Shown: positions 50,783 to 57,269 of the stretch, in pieces
Numbering within the stretch: position 1 is the first letter of the stretch
How the letters are laid out: the number at the start of each line of letters is the position of its first letter
From: Haloquadratum walsbyi J07HQW2
GTDB lineage: Archaea; Halobacteriota; Halobacteria; Halobacteriales; Haloferacaceae
Direction: 5' to 3'
Assembly (NCBI RefSeq): GCF_000415985.1
Contig: NZ_KE356561.1
Coordinates: 699,347-760,567, forward strand
Length of the DNA: 61,221 bases
Made by a program: the position numbers and the translations under genes
The notes under the pieces: generated by a model
Told to the model about the DNA's origin: nothing
What the model saw: the letters and a program-made list of their open reading frames with translations, nothing else
Databases searched by the model: none

Positions 50783-51958
50783 ATGTTTATTATGGGTCAT
50801 CCACAGGTCGCAGGCGTCGGACTCACACACTTTGGGAAGCATCCTGAACGCACAACTCGAGACATGTTTGCAGAAGCCGGTCTCACGGCTCTTGATGACG
50901 CCGGAGTTGACTCGGACGATATTGAAAGTGTTTTTTATGGGAATTTCATCGGTGAGGTCTCTGAGGATCAAGGTCATATGGGACCAATCTCAGCAGAGGC
51001 GCTCGGTATTGATGCCCCTGCAACACGGATTGAAAGTGCGTGTGCATCTTCAGGTGTTGCTGTGCGTGAAGCTGTCAAGAACGTTCGCTCTGGTGAGTCC
51101 GACGCAGTGATCGTCGGAGGTGCCGAGCGAATGAATAATCTTGGGACTGCCGAGACGACGGCATCACTCGCGCTCGCCGCGGATGATCTGTATGAGGTTC
51201 GTGTTGGAATGACTTTCCCTGGTGCGTATGCCCTGATGGCAGATGCGTATTTTGAGGAATATGGTGGGTCAAGAGAAGATCTAGCGTATATCGCACAGAA
51301 GAATCACGCAAATGCCGTTGATAATGAATTTGCACAGTTCCAATATGAAATTGATATTGATGACGCTCTCGATGCGCCACCGGTAGCAGAACCGTTACAT
51401 CTCTATGATGCGTGTCCAGTGACCGATGGAGCCGCGGCAGCGGTCATTGTCAGTGAGGAGTATGCTGCAAATAATAATCTCGATATTGACGTCCGCGTGA
51501 CAGGATCCGGGCAGGGTTCAGATAATCTCGCACTCCAGGACCGCGAGTATCTTACACAGACGCCAGCGGCAACGAACGCCGCAAATGAAGCCTTTGACGA
51601 TGCAACGATTGGACCTGCTGATGTTGATCTCGCAGAGGTACATGATTGCTTCACAATTGCAGAGGTCCTCGCACTCGAATCAATGGGAATCTTTGATCAC
51701 GGCGATGGGATCAACGCTGCACGTCGTGGTGATACGCTTCCTGAGGGCGACATCCCAGTCAACCTCTCTGGTGGGCTTAAAGCAAAAGGACATCCTGTCG
51801 GAGCAACAGGTGCCGCACAGATTGCAGAAATGACACGACTGTTACGCGGTGACCATCATAACAGCGAGTATGTCTCAGATTCCTCTGTCGGAATAACACA
51901 TAATGCTGGTGGAACCGTAGCAAGTACTGTTGTTCATGTCTTGGAGGTGGACCAATGA
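50783..51958 (+). CDS. bktB: Beta-ketothiolase, catalytic (alpha) subunit
   Basis: A 391-residue archaeal-type thiolase that condenses acyl-CoA with acetyl-CoA to 3-ketoacyl-CoA. The nucleophile is Cys87 (IESACASSG); the second active-site block is HDCFTIAEVLALESMG, then LKAKGHPVGATGAAQ and THNAGGTVAS. As in other archaeal/SCP-type thiolases the C-terminal Cys loop is replaced by HNAGG. It overlaps by four bases with a DUF35 partner, as in the BktB alpha/beta pair described for Haloferax PHBV synthesis. A start at Met4 (50792) is equally good. Confidence 0.85.
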   Translation: MFIMGHPQVAGVGLTHFGKHPERTTRDMFAEAGLTALDDAGVDSDDIESVFYGNFIGEVSEDQGHMGPISAEALGIDAPATRIESACASSGVAVREAVKNVRSGESDAVIVGGAERMNNLGTAETTASLALAADDLYEVRVGMTFPGAYALMADAYFEEYGGSREDLAYIAQKNHANAVDNEFAQFQYEIDIDDALDAPPVAEPLHLYDACPVTDGAAAAVIVSEEYAANNNLDIDVRVTGSGQGSDNLALQDREYLTQTPAATNAANEAFDDATIGPADVDLAEVHDCFTIAEVLALESMGIFDHGDGINAARRGDTLPEGDIPVNLSGGLKAKGHPVGATGAAQIAEMTRLLRGDHHNSEYVSDSSVGITHNAGGTVASTVVHVLEVDQ

Positions 51959-52344
51959 GTGATGTTGGCGATGCTGGATACGATGAATTACTCGAGGCAA
52001 TTGATGCGGGTGATGGCTACTATCTCGAGTGCGAAAATGAGCATGGGTCATTGCCACCACGACGTGTATGCCCACACTGTGGTTCAACTGATATTGAAGA
52101 AGTGTCACTCCCCGATGCAGGGGAAGTCGTTGCACACACAAAGGTCCATGTCCCGACTCCACGGTTCAGCGAAGACGCTCCGTATAATGTCGTGATCGTC
52201 GATTATGGACAGGTGCAGTTGACAGGACAACTCGTTGGTATTGATGATAATGATATCACGCACGGGCTTGATGTTACAGTCCAACTCGGTGACGCGACAA
52301 AAACAGGCGAACCGGTCGTGACGTTCGTTCCGGCTGGAAAATAA
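51955..52344 (+). CDS. Thiolase-associated Zn-ribbon/OB-fold (DUF35) subunit
   Basis: A 129-residue protein. The N-terminal rubredoxin-like ribbon is YLECENEHGSLPPRRVCPHCGS (about 23-44); only the second knuckle is a clean CxxC, the first being C-x3-H. The OB fold follows (GEVVAHTKVHVP, YNVVIVDYGQVQLTGQLVG). DUF35 proteins bridge thiolases and HMG-CoA synthase or act as the beta subunit of haloarchaeal BktB. The ATGA overlap with the thiolase supports a two-subunit enzyme. Confidence 0.85.
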   Translation: MSDVGDAGYDELLEAIDAGDGYYLECENEHGSLPPRRVCPHCGSTDIEEVSLPDAGEVVAHTKVHVPTPRFSEDAPYNVVIVDYGQVQLTGQLVGIDDNDITHGLDVTVQLGDATKTGEPVVTFVPAGK

Positions 52345-52565: not shown

Positions 52566-53309
52566 CTAAAGATCCATAGCACCGTTCACATCGATAACCT
52601 CACCTGAGATATATGATGCTTCTCCACTTGCGAGGAACTTCACCACGTGCGAGATATCTTGAACATCACCAAACCGACTCATTGGGATATCATCTCGAAT
52701 TGAATCTTTGACAGTATCAGGCACATCTGCAAGCATATCGGTTTTGGTAAACCCTGGTGCAACTGAATTTGCTGTTGACCCTGATGGCGCAAGTTCAAGT
52801 GCGAGCGTGCGCGTGAATCCAAAAATGCCTGACTTTGAGGTTGCATAGTTTGCCTGCCCAAAGTTACCCTGTTTTCCGACGATTGAAGAGATATTGATTA
52901 ATCGTCCTTGGTCTGATGATTTGATATCGCTGAAGAAAGCTTTTGTTGCATTAAACGTCCCGTTGAGGTTCACATCAATGACCGACTTCCACTGATCGGG
53001 CGTCATCTTCTCAAATGTCGTGTCCTTGGTAATGCCGGCATTATTAATCAAAATATCAATTGACCCAAATTCATCATGGACATGGTCCCGCATAGATTTG
53101 ATTGCTGAAAAATCGGTGACATCTGCCTGAGCGGTAATCGCAGTACCACCGGCATCACGAATCGTCTCAACGACATCATTTGCTTCTGCCTGTGATGATC
53201 GGTAGTTAACCGCTACATTGACCTCCTCACCAGCCAGTTCCTCAGCAATGCCACGACCAATGCCCCGCGATGCACCCGTAATAACGCAGGTTCTATTTTC
53301 GAGGTTCAT
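52566..53309 (-). CDS. phaB: Acetoacetyl-CoA reductase (PhaB/FabG type SDR)
   Basis: A 247-residue short-chain dehydrogenase producing (R)-3-hydroxyacyl-CoA with NADPH. Cofactor motif GASRGIGRGIAEE (about 11-23), NNAGI, catalytic Ser in NISSIVG, and Tyr/Lys in YATSK. The Arg/Tyr-Arg-Ser in NYRSS suits NADPH. Sequence alone does not separate PhaB from FabG, but the adjacent phaCE, phaP and thiolase genes favour PhaB. Starts at one of two consecutive ATG codons (53309 or 53312). Confidence 0.85.
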   Translation of the reverse strand: MNLENRTCVITGASRGIGRGIAEELAGEEVNVAVNYRSSQAEANDVVETIRDAGGTAITAQADVTDFSAIKSMRDHVHDEFGSIDILINNAGITKDTTFEKMTPDQWKSVIDVNLNGTFNATKAFFSDIKSSDQGRLINISSIVGKQGNFGQANYATSKSGIFGFTRTLALELAPSGSTANSVAPGFTKTDMLADVPDTVKDSIRDDIPMSRFGDVQDISHVVKFLASGEASYISGEVIDVNGAMDL

Positions 53310-53495
53310 CATTATGATAGTCCTGCTGTTCAGTGATCTGCCCAGCAGATAATCCATATTATGATACTACATTGATAATATTTTGGTAGGTATAGAAGGA
53401 TTTGCTGATAATCACATATCGATATATTATACCATATTAGGATTATTTTCCACTCATACAGATGCTCGAGTAGTTAGTATCTATCGTGATTGAGA

Positions 53496-54923
53496 TTATT
53501 GCTCGGTCACCTCACTCGCACGCTCACTCCACTCACGAAGCCGTGATGCACTAACCTCGATTGTCTCAGCGAGCGTGTCAGGATCAGCTGCGGCAAGACC
53601 GGCAACCGTCTCAATGCCTGCATCCTCCAACTGCTCACTGTATGCCGGTCCAATGCCCTGAATTGATTCTAATTCAGGTTTTTCTGCAGACTCAGTCGTC
53701 GTGTCTGCTTGCTCTGTGCTCCTCTCACCCTCATTAGAGTCGGTATCGTCACCAACAGGAATCTCAACAGCAGTATCATCAACAACTTCCGTTGCCCCAT
53801 CTGTTGAGAGACTTGAAGCTGACTCAACGGCTGAACGCTCAGCAAACCATCCAGCAACATCTGGCCAAAGTTCGGCGTGTGAGCTACTTGAGACAGATAA
53901 TCCGATATGTCCGGTTGATGCCTCCATAATTTCGGTATCCGAACTCGGAATGACGTCATTAAACGGTCGAGACGCTTCCGGTGGGATGAGATGGTCATAC
54001 TCGCCCATCACTTGCAACACTGGCATATCCAATTCAGATAATTCGACTGACTCGCCACCGAGTTCAAGTGTATCACGATAGAGTTGATTTTCCTGGTAGA
54101 TCTTTTCAAGAAACTCGACATATGCCGTTCCTGCAACATCAATTCCATCAGAGAGCCACCGTTCCATTCGTGAGAAATTCTCAACGAAGTCCTGATCATC
54201 GAGTTTGTCGTACAGCGTCGTGTATTTTGTAATATAATTATTAACAGGATCCATCAGAGCAAATCCAGTATCAAGGAACTCTGCGGGGACATTCCCGAAG
54301 GCATCAGTGACGTCCTGTGGGGAATAATACTCATCATCGCCCCATTCTTCAAGAATGCCACCAGTTCCAGCAAAGCAAAGTCCTGCTGCCATCAATCCAA
54401 GATTGCGAACTTTCTCGGGATTAATGGCACTGTACATGACACTCATTGTCCCGCCCATACAGTATCCCAGTAGATTAATTGAATCTACGTTTGATTGATC
54501 AGTGACTGCGTCAACACAGTTGTCGATATATCGGTTGACATAATCATCAAGAGATAATGCCTGATCAAGTAGCGATGGCTCACCCCAATCAATCAGATAC
54601 ACATCAAAACCTGCTTCAAGTAGCCGCCGAACAACAGATCGATCAGCTTGAAGATCGAGAATATATGGTCGATTGATCAACGCATAAACAATAAGAATTG
54701 GTACGTCGTGGTTTTCTTCTGCGTCGATGCCTGCTGCTTCAGCATCATATCGAAGTAATTCAAGCTTATTTTCCTCATAGACGACGTTACTTGGCGTTTC
54801 ACCAACCTCGATAGTTGCCATCGTCTCCAGGCTTTCTGGAAGTGCTTGCATCGACTCAGTTGTCTCAGTCATTGAGTTGATGAAGTTTCGTTGTGCGTCA
54901 AGTGGGTATGTGAACGGATTCAT
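53496..54923 (-). CDS. phaC: Class III PHA synthase catalytic subunit with HhH tail
   Basis: A 475-residue alpha/beta hydrolase that polymerises (R)-3-hydroxyacyl-CoA at the granule surface. The catalytic triad is Cys155 (GYCMGG), Asp310 (GEYDHLIP) and His339 (STGHIGL). The synthase core ends near 364. After an acidic, disordered linker (about 365-416) comes a helix-hairpin-helix-like domain, residues 417-468 ([19 protein letters not shown], then [15 protein letters not shown]). Such DUF4332-like domains bind DNA or proteins. Starts in an ATGA overlap with phaE (54920-54923), consistent with an equimolar PhaEC complex. Confidence 0.92.
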
Positions 54924-55474
54924 GTCTGATCAATAAGCTGATCTAGTTTTGATTCAATTGATTGCTGTCGTCGTTCAACCTCCACAAGTCGTTCACCGAC
55001 CTCACGAATATCGCCGGTTGTCGCAAATCCCATCCCGTGAAGCGTGTCCTCAGCCGTGTCATTCATCTGTTGTTGGAAATCAAGAACGCTATCGAGATTT
55101 TGACCGGTCATTGCTGCAAATGCGGTTGTTGACATCGACTCTTTGAACGCCTCATTTGCGGTATTCAGCCAAATATCACGGAATTCTGTCGGGTCGACGT
55201 CTTCACCCTCAATTATATCTCCCATCCGTTCATATGAGGATTCTGCAGCCTCCATCCAGGACTCATACGCTTGTGCAGCACCTTCTGAGGCATCATCGAA
55301 TTGCTCCTCAGAAAACATCTCATCGGCTGAATCCAACATCATGTCCGCAAACTCAGACTGTGCGTCCATGTTACGTTTGAGTGTGTCGGTGTATGCTTCT
55401 GAAAACTGTTCGAACATCGATTCCATCATTTCGGTCCCCATCATCTCTGCGGGATCTCCTGTATTATTGCTCAT
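54920..55474 (-). CDS. phaE: PHA synthase subunit PhaE
   Basis: A 184-residue acidic helical protein. It has the haloarchaeal PhaE layout: a Met-rich start ([14 protein letters not shown]), [13 protein letters not shown] near 107-119 and a C-terminal amphipathic helix [25 protein letters not shown]. It is required with PhaC for synthase activity in haloarchaea. No catalytic residues. Begins 172 bp after phaP, so it may be read from the phaRP promoter or its own. Confidence 0.9.
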
Positions 55475-55646: not shown

Positions 55647-56111
55647 TTACTCGTCCATGGAGATCGGCACCGGTGTGCCGTCACTCATTGACTCTGCGTT
55701 TGTCATCGCCTGAGACATCATCTCATACATCTCATCGACCATCTCCGCCTGTGTCTCAGCGAGTTCATCATAGCCGTCAATTGCGTCTTCTGCCGAATCC
55801 TCGAGTGACTCCCACGTTTCACCGTGCACATCAACTAATGCATCGTATTGATCATCGATAGCACTTCGAAGTTCCTCAGTGGTGTCGTCTGGAAGTCCAG
55901 GCTCCATTCCATCAATAGCAGTGTGAAATGCACGACGAGTCATCTCAACACTATCTTGCTGAGCACTTGCAGTTGGTTCAAAACTTTCAATAACTGCCTC
56001 GGCAGCTTCTTTCTGAAATTCAATCGACTGGGTTACCGCTTCGCGACTTGCTTCCATGTACGTGCGTTGCATCTCGAACATACTGCTGAGTGGATTTTGA
56101 TCTGTATTCAT
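55647..56111 (-). CDS. phaP: Phasin PhaP
   Basis: A 154-residue acidic all-helical protein (MQRTYMEASREAVTQSIEFQKEAAEAV, EMTRRAFHTAIDGME). It should coat PHA granules. It begins 6 nt after the AbrB-type gene, as in the phaRP pair of Haloferax mediterranei. Confidence 0.85.
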   Translation of the reverse strand: MNTDQNPLSSMFEMQRTYMEASREAVTQSIEFQKEAAEAVIESFEPTASAQQDSVEMTRRAFHTAIDGMEPGLPDDTTEELRSAIDDQYDALVDVHGETWESLEDSAEDAIDGYDELAETQAEMVDEMYEMMSQAMTNAESMSDGTPVPISMDE

Positions 56112-56117
56112 TGTAAA

Positions 56118-56432
56118 TCACCGATTTCGTTTGATTGGGATGACAACCGTTTGGACAATGTCGCCCTCCTCAATGTCAAGTGCTTCTCGCTCCGCATCGG
56201 GGATCGAAATACGCCCACCGCTTTGGACGCGTGTTTTGAACATCGCTGTTCCCATACTCATGGCACTCAACTGTGAGAAATCACCGAGTCCGCCAGCGTT
56301 CATATTACTCTGCATGAACTGCTCGAATAGTTCCTGCTGGCTCTGTGTCGCATTCTGTGTTGCTTCCTGAAACTGTTTTGCAACAGCCGCCGGCGACCAG
56401 ATGGGCGTCTCATCATCCGAATCGTCTGTCAT
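56118..56432 (-). CDS. phaR: AbrB-family regulator PhaR
   Basis: A 104-residue protein with an N-terminal acidic, Gln-rich helical part (1-60) and a C-terminal SpoVT/AbrB swapped hairpin (FKTRVQSGGRISIPDAER, then LDIEEGDIVQTVVIP). In Haloferax mediterranei the equivalent PhaR binds the phaRP promoter and links granule state to transcription. The start at 56432 is preferred; the upstream 17-residue extension is non-haloarchaeal in composition and would cover a putative TATA box. Confidence 0.82.
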   Translation of the reverse strand: MTDDSDDETPIWSPAAVAKQFQEATQNATQSQQELFEQFMQSNMNAGGLGDFSQLSAMSMGTAMFKTRVQSGGRISIPDAEREALDIEEGDIVQTVVIPIKRNR

Positions 56433-56457
56433 CTCAGTTTTACATACTCGGCTTGAG

Positions 56458-56468
56458 ATGATAAATCT
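56458..56468 (-). promoter_or_regulatory. TATA-like box of phaR
   Basis: GATTTATCATC on the minus strand, about 31 nt before the phaR ATG, suiting a leaderless transcript. A direct repeat lies just upstream. Confidence 0.35.
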
Positions 56469-56477
56469 TGTTATTAT

Positions 56478-56509
56478 TACCATTTGTTACCACTGAGTAC
56501 CATTTGTTG
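56478..56509. promoter_or_regulatory. Direct repeat TACCATTTGTT, 20-bp period
   Basis: TACCATTTGTT occurs at 56478-56488 and again at 56498-56508, so corresponding bases are exactly 20 bp (two helical turns) apart. It lies directly upstream of the putative phaR TATA box and in the spacer shared with the divergent MaoC gene. Candidate PhaR operator. Confidence 0.45.
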
Positions 56510-56603: not shown

Positions 56604-57269
56604 ATGGCATCTGATCAGTCATCAATGACTGACTCATTCGAAGGAATAGCGACTGCGTGGTTAGAGTCATCAACAGCTGTTTCAAAGAATATGGCTCAAA
56701 TGTACTCAAATATTGCTGAAGCCAATCGTGAGTTGTGGTCACAATCGATGGATCCAGCAGAATCGACTGATCGAGAGTCCGGTGATGACTCAATCGCTTA
56801 CAGTAAGTCTTCATGGACAACGGTTCAATCAGTTGACACAGTTGAAGAACTCGGCGTTGGTAGTGAGGTAGTATTCAGAAAAGAATTGACTGATAGTGAT
56901 GTTCACGCATTTGCAGATATCAGTGGTGACACGAATCGACTTCATCTTGATGATGAATTCGCCTCAGATACCCGGTTTGGTCGCCGAATTGTCCATGGCA
57001 CATTGGCGTCTGGATTAATTAGCTCTGCACTTGCGCGTCTCCCCGGGATGATCGTATACCTGTCACAGGATCTTGATTTTGAGCGCCCTGTCGATATTGG
57101 AACGACTGTTGAGGCAACTGTTAGTATTATTGAAACGCTTGACGGTGATCGATATCGACTCAACACGACAGTGCAAACAGCGGAGGGGACTACTGTCATT
57201 GATGGTGAGGCGGTTGTCCTTATCGATTCACCACCAGCAACCGAGACAGACACAGACACGAGTGAGTAA
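56604..57269 (+). CDS. phaJ: MaoC-type (R)-enoyl-CoA hydratase with phasin-like N terminus
   Basis: A 221-residue two-part protein. Residues 75-210 form a hot-dog MaoC hydratase with the catalytic motif DISGDTNRLHLDD (Asp109 and His114), FGRRIVHGTLASGL and an acidic end. It would hydrate enoyl-CoA to (R)-3-hydroxyacyl-CoA for PhaC. Residues 8-50 (MTDSFEGIATAWLESSTAV...) are amphipathic helix resembling the phasin/PhaE start, followed by an acidic linker (51-68). Simple PhaJ proteins lack this part, so it may tether the enzyme to granules. Divergent from phaR. The symbol is by function, not orthology. Confidence 0.8.
   Translation: MASDQSSMTDSFEGIATAWLESSTAVSKNMAQMYSNIAEANRELWSQSMDPAESTDRESGDDSIAYSKSSWTTVQSVDTVEELGVGSEVVFRKELTDSDVHAFADISGDTNRLHLDDEFASDTRFGRRIVHGTLASGLISSALARLPGMIVYLSQDLDFERPVDIGTTVEATVSIIETLDGDRYRLNTTVQTAEGTTVIDGEAVVLIDSPPATETDTDTSE

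Follow-up and report, generated by a model that had tools for sequence, protein, structure and literature searches.

The helix-hairpin-helix tail of haloarchaeal PHA synthases: a class-wide domain and candidate docking module, examined from a Haloquadratum phaC gene

The stretch of DNA analysed here (the window, 61,221 nucleotides of Haloquadratum walsbyi J07HQW2) carries a phaC gene whose product is a standard haloarchaeal class III PHA synthase subunit, an ordinary member of its family, and ends in a helix-hairpin-helix (HhH) domain. Comparison of haloarchaeal sequences shows this tail to be a class-wide feature of PhaC, not the peculiarity of one strain. We tentatively read it as a protein-docking or self-association module that would hold the enzyme and its partners together at the surface of the granule, a reading to which we give a little under an even chance. 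Both the tail domain and the idea of a link between granule and nucleoid are already known and in print: a 2025 paper describes an HhH domain in the AlphaFold model of Haloferax mediterranei PhaC, states its function as unknown and draws the PhaH/nucleoid parallel for this enzyme (PMC12028471). The gene, its parts and its neighbours in the window are as follows.

53496..54923, reverse strand: phaC, catalytic subunit of class III PHA synthase, 475 aa (TIGR01836 above cut-off)
53832..54923, reverse strand: catalytic alpha/beta-hydrolase part of PhaC, residues 1-364, with the triad C155/D310/H339 (alignment, model, matches to solved PhaC folds)
53682..53831, reverse strand: acidic, Ser/Thr-rich disordered linker, residues 365-414 (pLDDT, composition)
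53499..53681, reverse strand: C-terminal HhH domain, residues 415-475, with an HHH_5 core at 417-469 (PF14520, models, fold match, conservation)
54920..55474, reverse strand: phaE, small subunit of class III PHA synthase, 184 aa (PF09712 PHA_synth_III_E above cut-off)
55647..56111, reverse strand: probable phasin phaP, 154 aa (place in the published cluster; Phasin_2 weak, E 0.26)
56118..56483, reverse strand: probable phaR, AbrB-like regulator, 121 aa by ORF call (TIGR01439 E 4.3e-5, below cut-off; cluster position)
56604..57269, forward strand: maoC-like (R)-enoyl-CoA hydratase (PF01575 E 3.8e-19)
52566..53357, reverse strand: SDR reductase, probable acetoacetyl-CoA reductase, PhaB/FabG-like (PF00106 E 6.8e-59; FabG/PhaB models)
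50783-52344, forward strand: thiolase and zinc-ribbon/OB protein

The NCBIfam model for class III PhaC, TIGR01836, matched residues 14-363 of the window PhaC with 389.3 bits against a cut-off of 365.3, and the adjoining phaE ends in a stop codon that shares a 4-base overlap with the phaC ATG. The identification as a PHA synthase made in a preliminary description of this DNA is thus confirmed, and its numbering of the triad (Cys155, Asp310, His339) is correct: in an alignment of 68 sequences D310 and H339 are invariant and C155 nearly so. AlphaFold2, run with the 68-row alignment, gave mostly high confidence for the catalytic part, and the full-length model matches solved structures of PhaC from Aeromonas, Cupriavidus and Chromobacterium. 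The labels PhaP and PhaR are based on gene order because the family matches are weak; the order maoC-phaR-phaP-phaE-phaC has been published, Haloquadratum walsbyi included (PMC7137286). The closest named relative in the contig scan was H. walsbyi J07HQW1 (88% identity in the best segment, L036).

Downstream of the catalytic part, the 50-residue linker contains 15 D/E, 15 S/T and a single K/R. Its residues 369-414 have pLDDT below 50 in the AlphaFold2 model, and the tail that follows is helical with pLDDT of 91-98. HHH_5 (PF14520) matched residues 417-469 with an E value of 2e-10 (41.4 bits, cut-off 27) and DUF4332 matched residues 419-457 just above its threshold (24.3 against 23.2), so that an HhH/DUF4332-like domain behind an acidic linker, as had been proposed from the letters, is indeed present. 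Landmarks of the domain in the window PhaC are the hairpin G423-I-G425, Y428 and W465. Modelled alone, the tail reached a mean pLDDT of 92.4; the ten best matches in the PDB were mostly RadA/Rad51 N-terminal domains (query-normalised TM 0.71-0.85, rmsd 1.1-1.7 A), and the HhH of Y-family DNA polymerases was also among the closest solved structures. The Foldseek E values of these matches are weak (0.01-0.05) because the domain is small (64 aa), and the best TM is high. Structure prediction, which had been put forward as a check, therefore returned an HhH fold. Chance or a frame artefact was considered as an origin of the tail and is ruled out by the curated family scores, the models and conservation.

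PhaC matches at 1e-20 were found in 222 of the 391 genomes of the class Halobacteria; for all the matches listed, the open frame was 448 aa or longer. In the alignment A1, HHH_5 was matched in 53 of 68 members, which are all 53 tail-bearing haloarchaeal PhaCs; in this alignment, the survey of haloarchaeal C termini suggested earlier found the domain wherever there was a tail. Judged from tail lengths, the 15 A1 members that lack HHH_5 would be the tailless haloarchaeal L096 and L106, one Thermoplasmata sequence and 12 bacterial ones. HHH_5 was also matched in 42 of the 48 members of the alignment A2, the six others apparently being L096, L106, L135, L137, L101 and the frameshifted L129. A rare fusion peculiar to this organism can be dismissed on the basis of the haloarchaeal survey, and the word ‘added’ in the preliminary description is apt with respect to bacterial PhaC, though within the haloarchaea the tail is standard.

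Conservation within the tail is sharp. Across 109 distinct haloarchaeal PhaC tails, G423, G425, L432, L443 and W465 never vary; Y428 is kept in 107 of these tails and R461 in 98. Linkers are between about 5 and 128 aa long (median 54; median 40% acidic) and three PhaCs (L074, L080 and L092) carry the domain almost without linker. Among Haloquadratum relatives identity is 93% in the catalytic part, 76-85% in the HhH domain and 59-68% in the linker. A tree of the HhH domain, built on 57 columns only, leaves 47 of its 106 inner branches open and unites the topoisomerase tails in one group (99/91); it is compatible with a single origin of the PhaC tail as well as with several, and so does not date the fusion. 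Adjacency of PhaE was considered as a correlate of the tail and is not a clean one: 96 tailed loci have PhaE nearby and 15 do not, and PhaE also lies near 8 tailless loci, most of which are bacterial and one of which is truncated by the end of its contig.

Several haloarchaeal paralogues depart from this architecture. A tailless PhaC of Halogranum amylolyticum (L096, 2486-3574) keeps the GYCMGG box and the GHIG motif, has phaE adjoining and occurs in the same genome as a tailed PhaC (L211); if this intact phaEC pair is active, the tail is not universally needed. L106, L135 and L137 are further tailless haloarchaeal paralogues; truncated PhaC2-like homologues have been stated not to be found outside H. 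mediterranei (PMC12863089). Five sequences (L130, L131, L132, L136 and L214) carry an extra domain of ~100 aa (LADVIGEG...LGVDVETDV) between the catalytic part and the HhH, and the HhH is present twice in L130. Short-linker PhaC-HhH proteins of ~440 aa that closely resemble one another (L054, L069, L070, L078 and the plasmid matches H2-H4) occur in several haloarchaeal families, are partly plasmid-borne and have probably spread horizontally; no PhaE was recognised upstream of their genes. On a Salinigranum rubrum plasmid (L129, NZ_CP026311.1 114338-115658), PhaC and HhH lie in different frames, the HhH being annotated as a separate protein, which reflects a frameshift or a sequencing error. 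A haloarchaeal-type PhaC with HhH was also found on a 3239-base contig of a Bradymonadaceae MAG (L080), probably a case of mis-binning.

The domain also has relatives outside PhaC. A profile of the PhaC tail gave at least one strong match in each of 59 genomes of the class (59/59), and the non-PhaC matches were of two kinds. The first consists of long frames of ~830-960 aa; its representative in the window's genome is the C terminus of topoisomerase I (L002). The second is a protein of ~160-350 aa whose N terminus looks amphipathic and which has an acidic linker and a C-terminal HhH of the PhaC subtype. This protein is present in nearly all 59 sampled haloarchaeal genomes, including those devoid of PhaC; examples are G000:C1:2599759-2599923 (L003/L148), L161, L165 and L169, among others, and aroE was adjoining in both loci read. 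On plasmids, the same subtype ends a haloarchaeal DUF87 (ATPase) protein (H52, H54 and H56). A search of plasmid proteins with the tail returned only haloarchaeal records and no PhaH-like phasin, among the matches listed. For the family HHH_5 itself, the window's genome has 19 matches at E 0.01, of which 14 exceed the cut-off. Most of the other proteins concerned look like nucleic-acid proteins, to judge from a reading of their sequences and not from family scans; examples are RadA, a PolX-like polymerase, UvrC, topoisomerase I, DNA ligase, DinB and ribosomal eL32.

Would the ligand of the tail be DNA or protein? The window PhaC lacks the basic residues that flank the hairpin in DNA enzymes: position +4 is Ala and position +8 is Gln, and inspection of the 14 residues of its hairpin and following helix found no basic residue. 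Nor are they conserved across PhaC tails. At +4, K/R occurs in 1% of PhaC tails, 0% of the aroE-linked proteins and 86% of the topoisomerase I group; at +8 the figures are 56% (R), 100% (R) and 100% (K), respectively. Position +5 is Tyr in PhaC and the aroE-linked protein and Thr in the topoisomerase I group. These counts speak against a conserved phosphate clamp of the kind expected for the topoisomerase. The PhaC tails are acidic as well, with a mean net charge of -10.1 and 3.1 K+R per domain; charge alone proved uninformative as a test of DNA binding, since the RadA domain of the window's genome (-10) is as acidic as the PhaC tail. The glycines of an HhH can contact phosphate through the backbone alone. 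The PhaC tail may therefore bind DNA, given this mode of contact and the equally acidic RadA domain. Sequence comparison, the sole ground for the ranking, puts protein docking or self-association slightly ahead of a tether to DNA.

How such a module could act may be sketched as follows. PhaC and PhaE would polymerise hydroxyacyl-CoA while the HhH domain, held on its disordered acidic linker, docks on a protein or self-associates, and this docking would keep PhaC with its partners at the granule surface and so support full activity at high salt. The ligand, we infer, would be a protein (PhaE, PhaP, a second such domain or a different HhH protein) instead of DNA. This docking role is favoured because the domain is strictly conserved while the linker varies from ~5 to 128 residues, because the basic residues of the hairpin are not kept and because the Y/W subtype is common to the acidic-linker protein of nearly all sampled haloarchaea. 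It is also favoured over pure positioning because loss of the longer haloarchaeal PhaC C terminus is reported, in reviews and one primary paper, to lower or abolish PHA synthesis (PMC6631277, PMC2939530, PMC7137286). A caution is that the PhaC3 C terminus, grafted onto the tailless PhaC2, conferred no activity (PMC2939530). What counts against docking is that nucleic-acid binding is the default for this fold, as judged from the HHH_5 relatives and from RadA/Rad51 as nearest folds; the tailless phaEC pair of Halogranum amylolyticum also counts against it, should that pair be active.

A rival proposal is that the HhH binds DNA non-specifically, so that the synthase at the granule surface attaches granules to the nucleoid and spreads them between daughter cells, as has been suggested for Caulobacter PhaH and Haloferax PhaC; a tie between granules and nucleoid was also envisaged in the preliminary description. 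We regard the proposal as possible, with a probability nearer one in three than one in two. The GxG hairpin is intact in every tail, the fold is that of the RadA/Rad51 N-terminal domain and most of its relatives within this genome belong to nucleic-acid enzymes. There are precedents among granule proteins, since PhaM, PhaF and PhaH have been reviewed as granule-nucleoid tethers, PhaH acting through an HhH (PMC13052382), and non-specific DNA binding is reported in this review for the HhH end of Caulobacter PhaH. H. mediterranei granules have been seen with DNA spots (PMC8156647), although in a staining study without a localisation test. The proposal is weakened by the window hairpin, devoid of basic residues, and by the lack of conserved +4/+8 basic residues across PhaC tails; the acidity of the tail points the same way, though RadA is equally acidic. 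Moreover, the drop in activity reported for enzymes that have lost the C terminus is not a positioning phenotype.

A doubtful alternative is that linker and domain bind no particular ligand and serve mainly to maintain the solubility and folding of the enzyme on the granule when salt is high. The strongly acidic linker would suit such a role, but a sharply conserved hairpin, Tyr and Trp beside a drifting linker indicate selection on a binding surface, and halophilic paralogues exist that have no tail. Less probable again is a role of the Tyr/Trp HhH subtype as a common haloarchaeal docking tag, through which PhaC, the aroE-linked protein and some plasmid proteins would reach one shared hub, either a protein or the nucleoid; if true, this would put PHA granules on a scaffold of other cell structures. 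A neutral history, in which a mobile domain became attached to PhaC in the distant past and has persisted although it does nothing, appears very improbable: the subtype does occur on unrelated haloarchaeal proteins, plasmid ones included, but residues invariant in 109 tails over the class, and a domain better kept than the linker among Haloquadratum relatives, speak against neutrality. Mutation of Y428, W465 or the hairpin GxG would separate docking, DNA binding and stability. The PhaC C terminus offers a handle for bioplastic engineering and may bear on how archaeal granules are positioned and shared.

Compared with known systems, the window enzyme is closest to the PhaEC of Haloferax mediterranei, Haloarcula marismortui and H. 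hispanica, which belong to the same family, share the maoC-phaR-phaP-phaE-phaC order and have a long C terminus; no substantial difference from them was found, linker length and sequence varying by species. Bacterial class III-like PhaCs (planctomycete and cyanobacterial, L102-L114) are ~41-45% identical in the catalytic part over aligned rows and, in contrast, stop ~1-16 residues past it, without linker or HhH. PhaH of Caulobacter crescentus resembles the haloarchaeal enzyme in having an HhH and in belonging to the granule, and it is reported to bind DNA and thereby to organise the granules, but it is a phasin and not a synthase, and the likeness is one of description, not of compared sequence. 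The RadA/Rad51 HhH has the same fold by model and is acidic too in the window's genome, yet it is N-terminal and has neither the Tyr nor the Trp that mark the PhaC subtype. The HhH of haloarchaeal topoisomerase I is closely related, C-terminal and endowed with the Trp; it differs in carrying K at both +4 and +8 and in having Thr, not the Tyr of PhaC, at +5.
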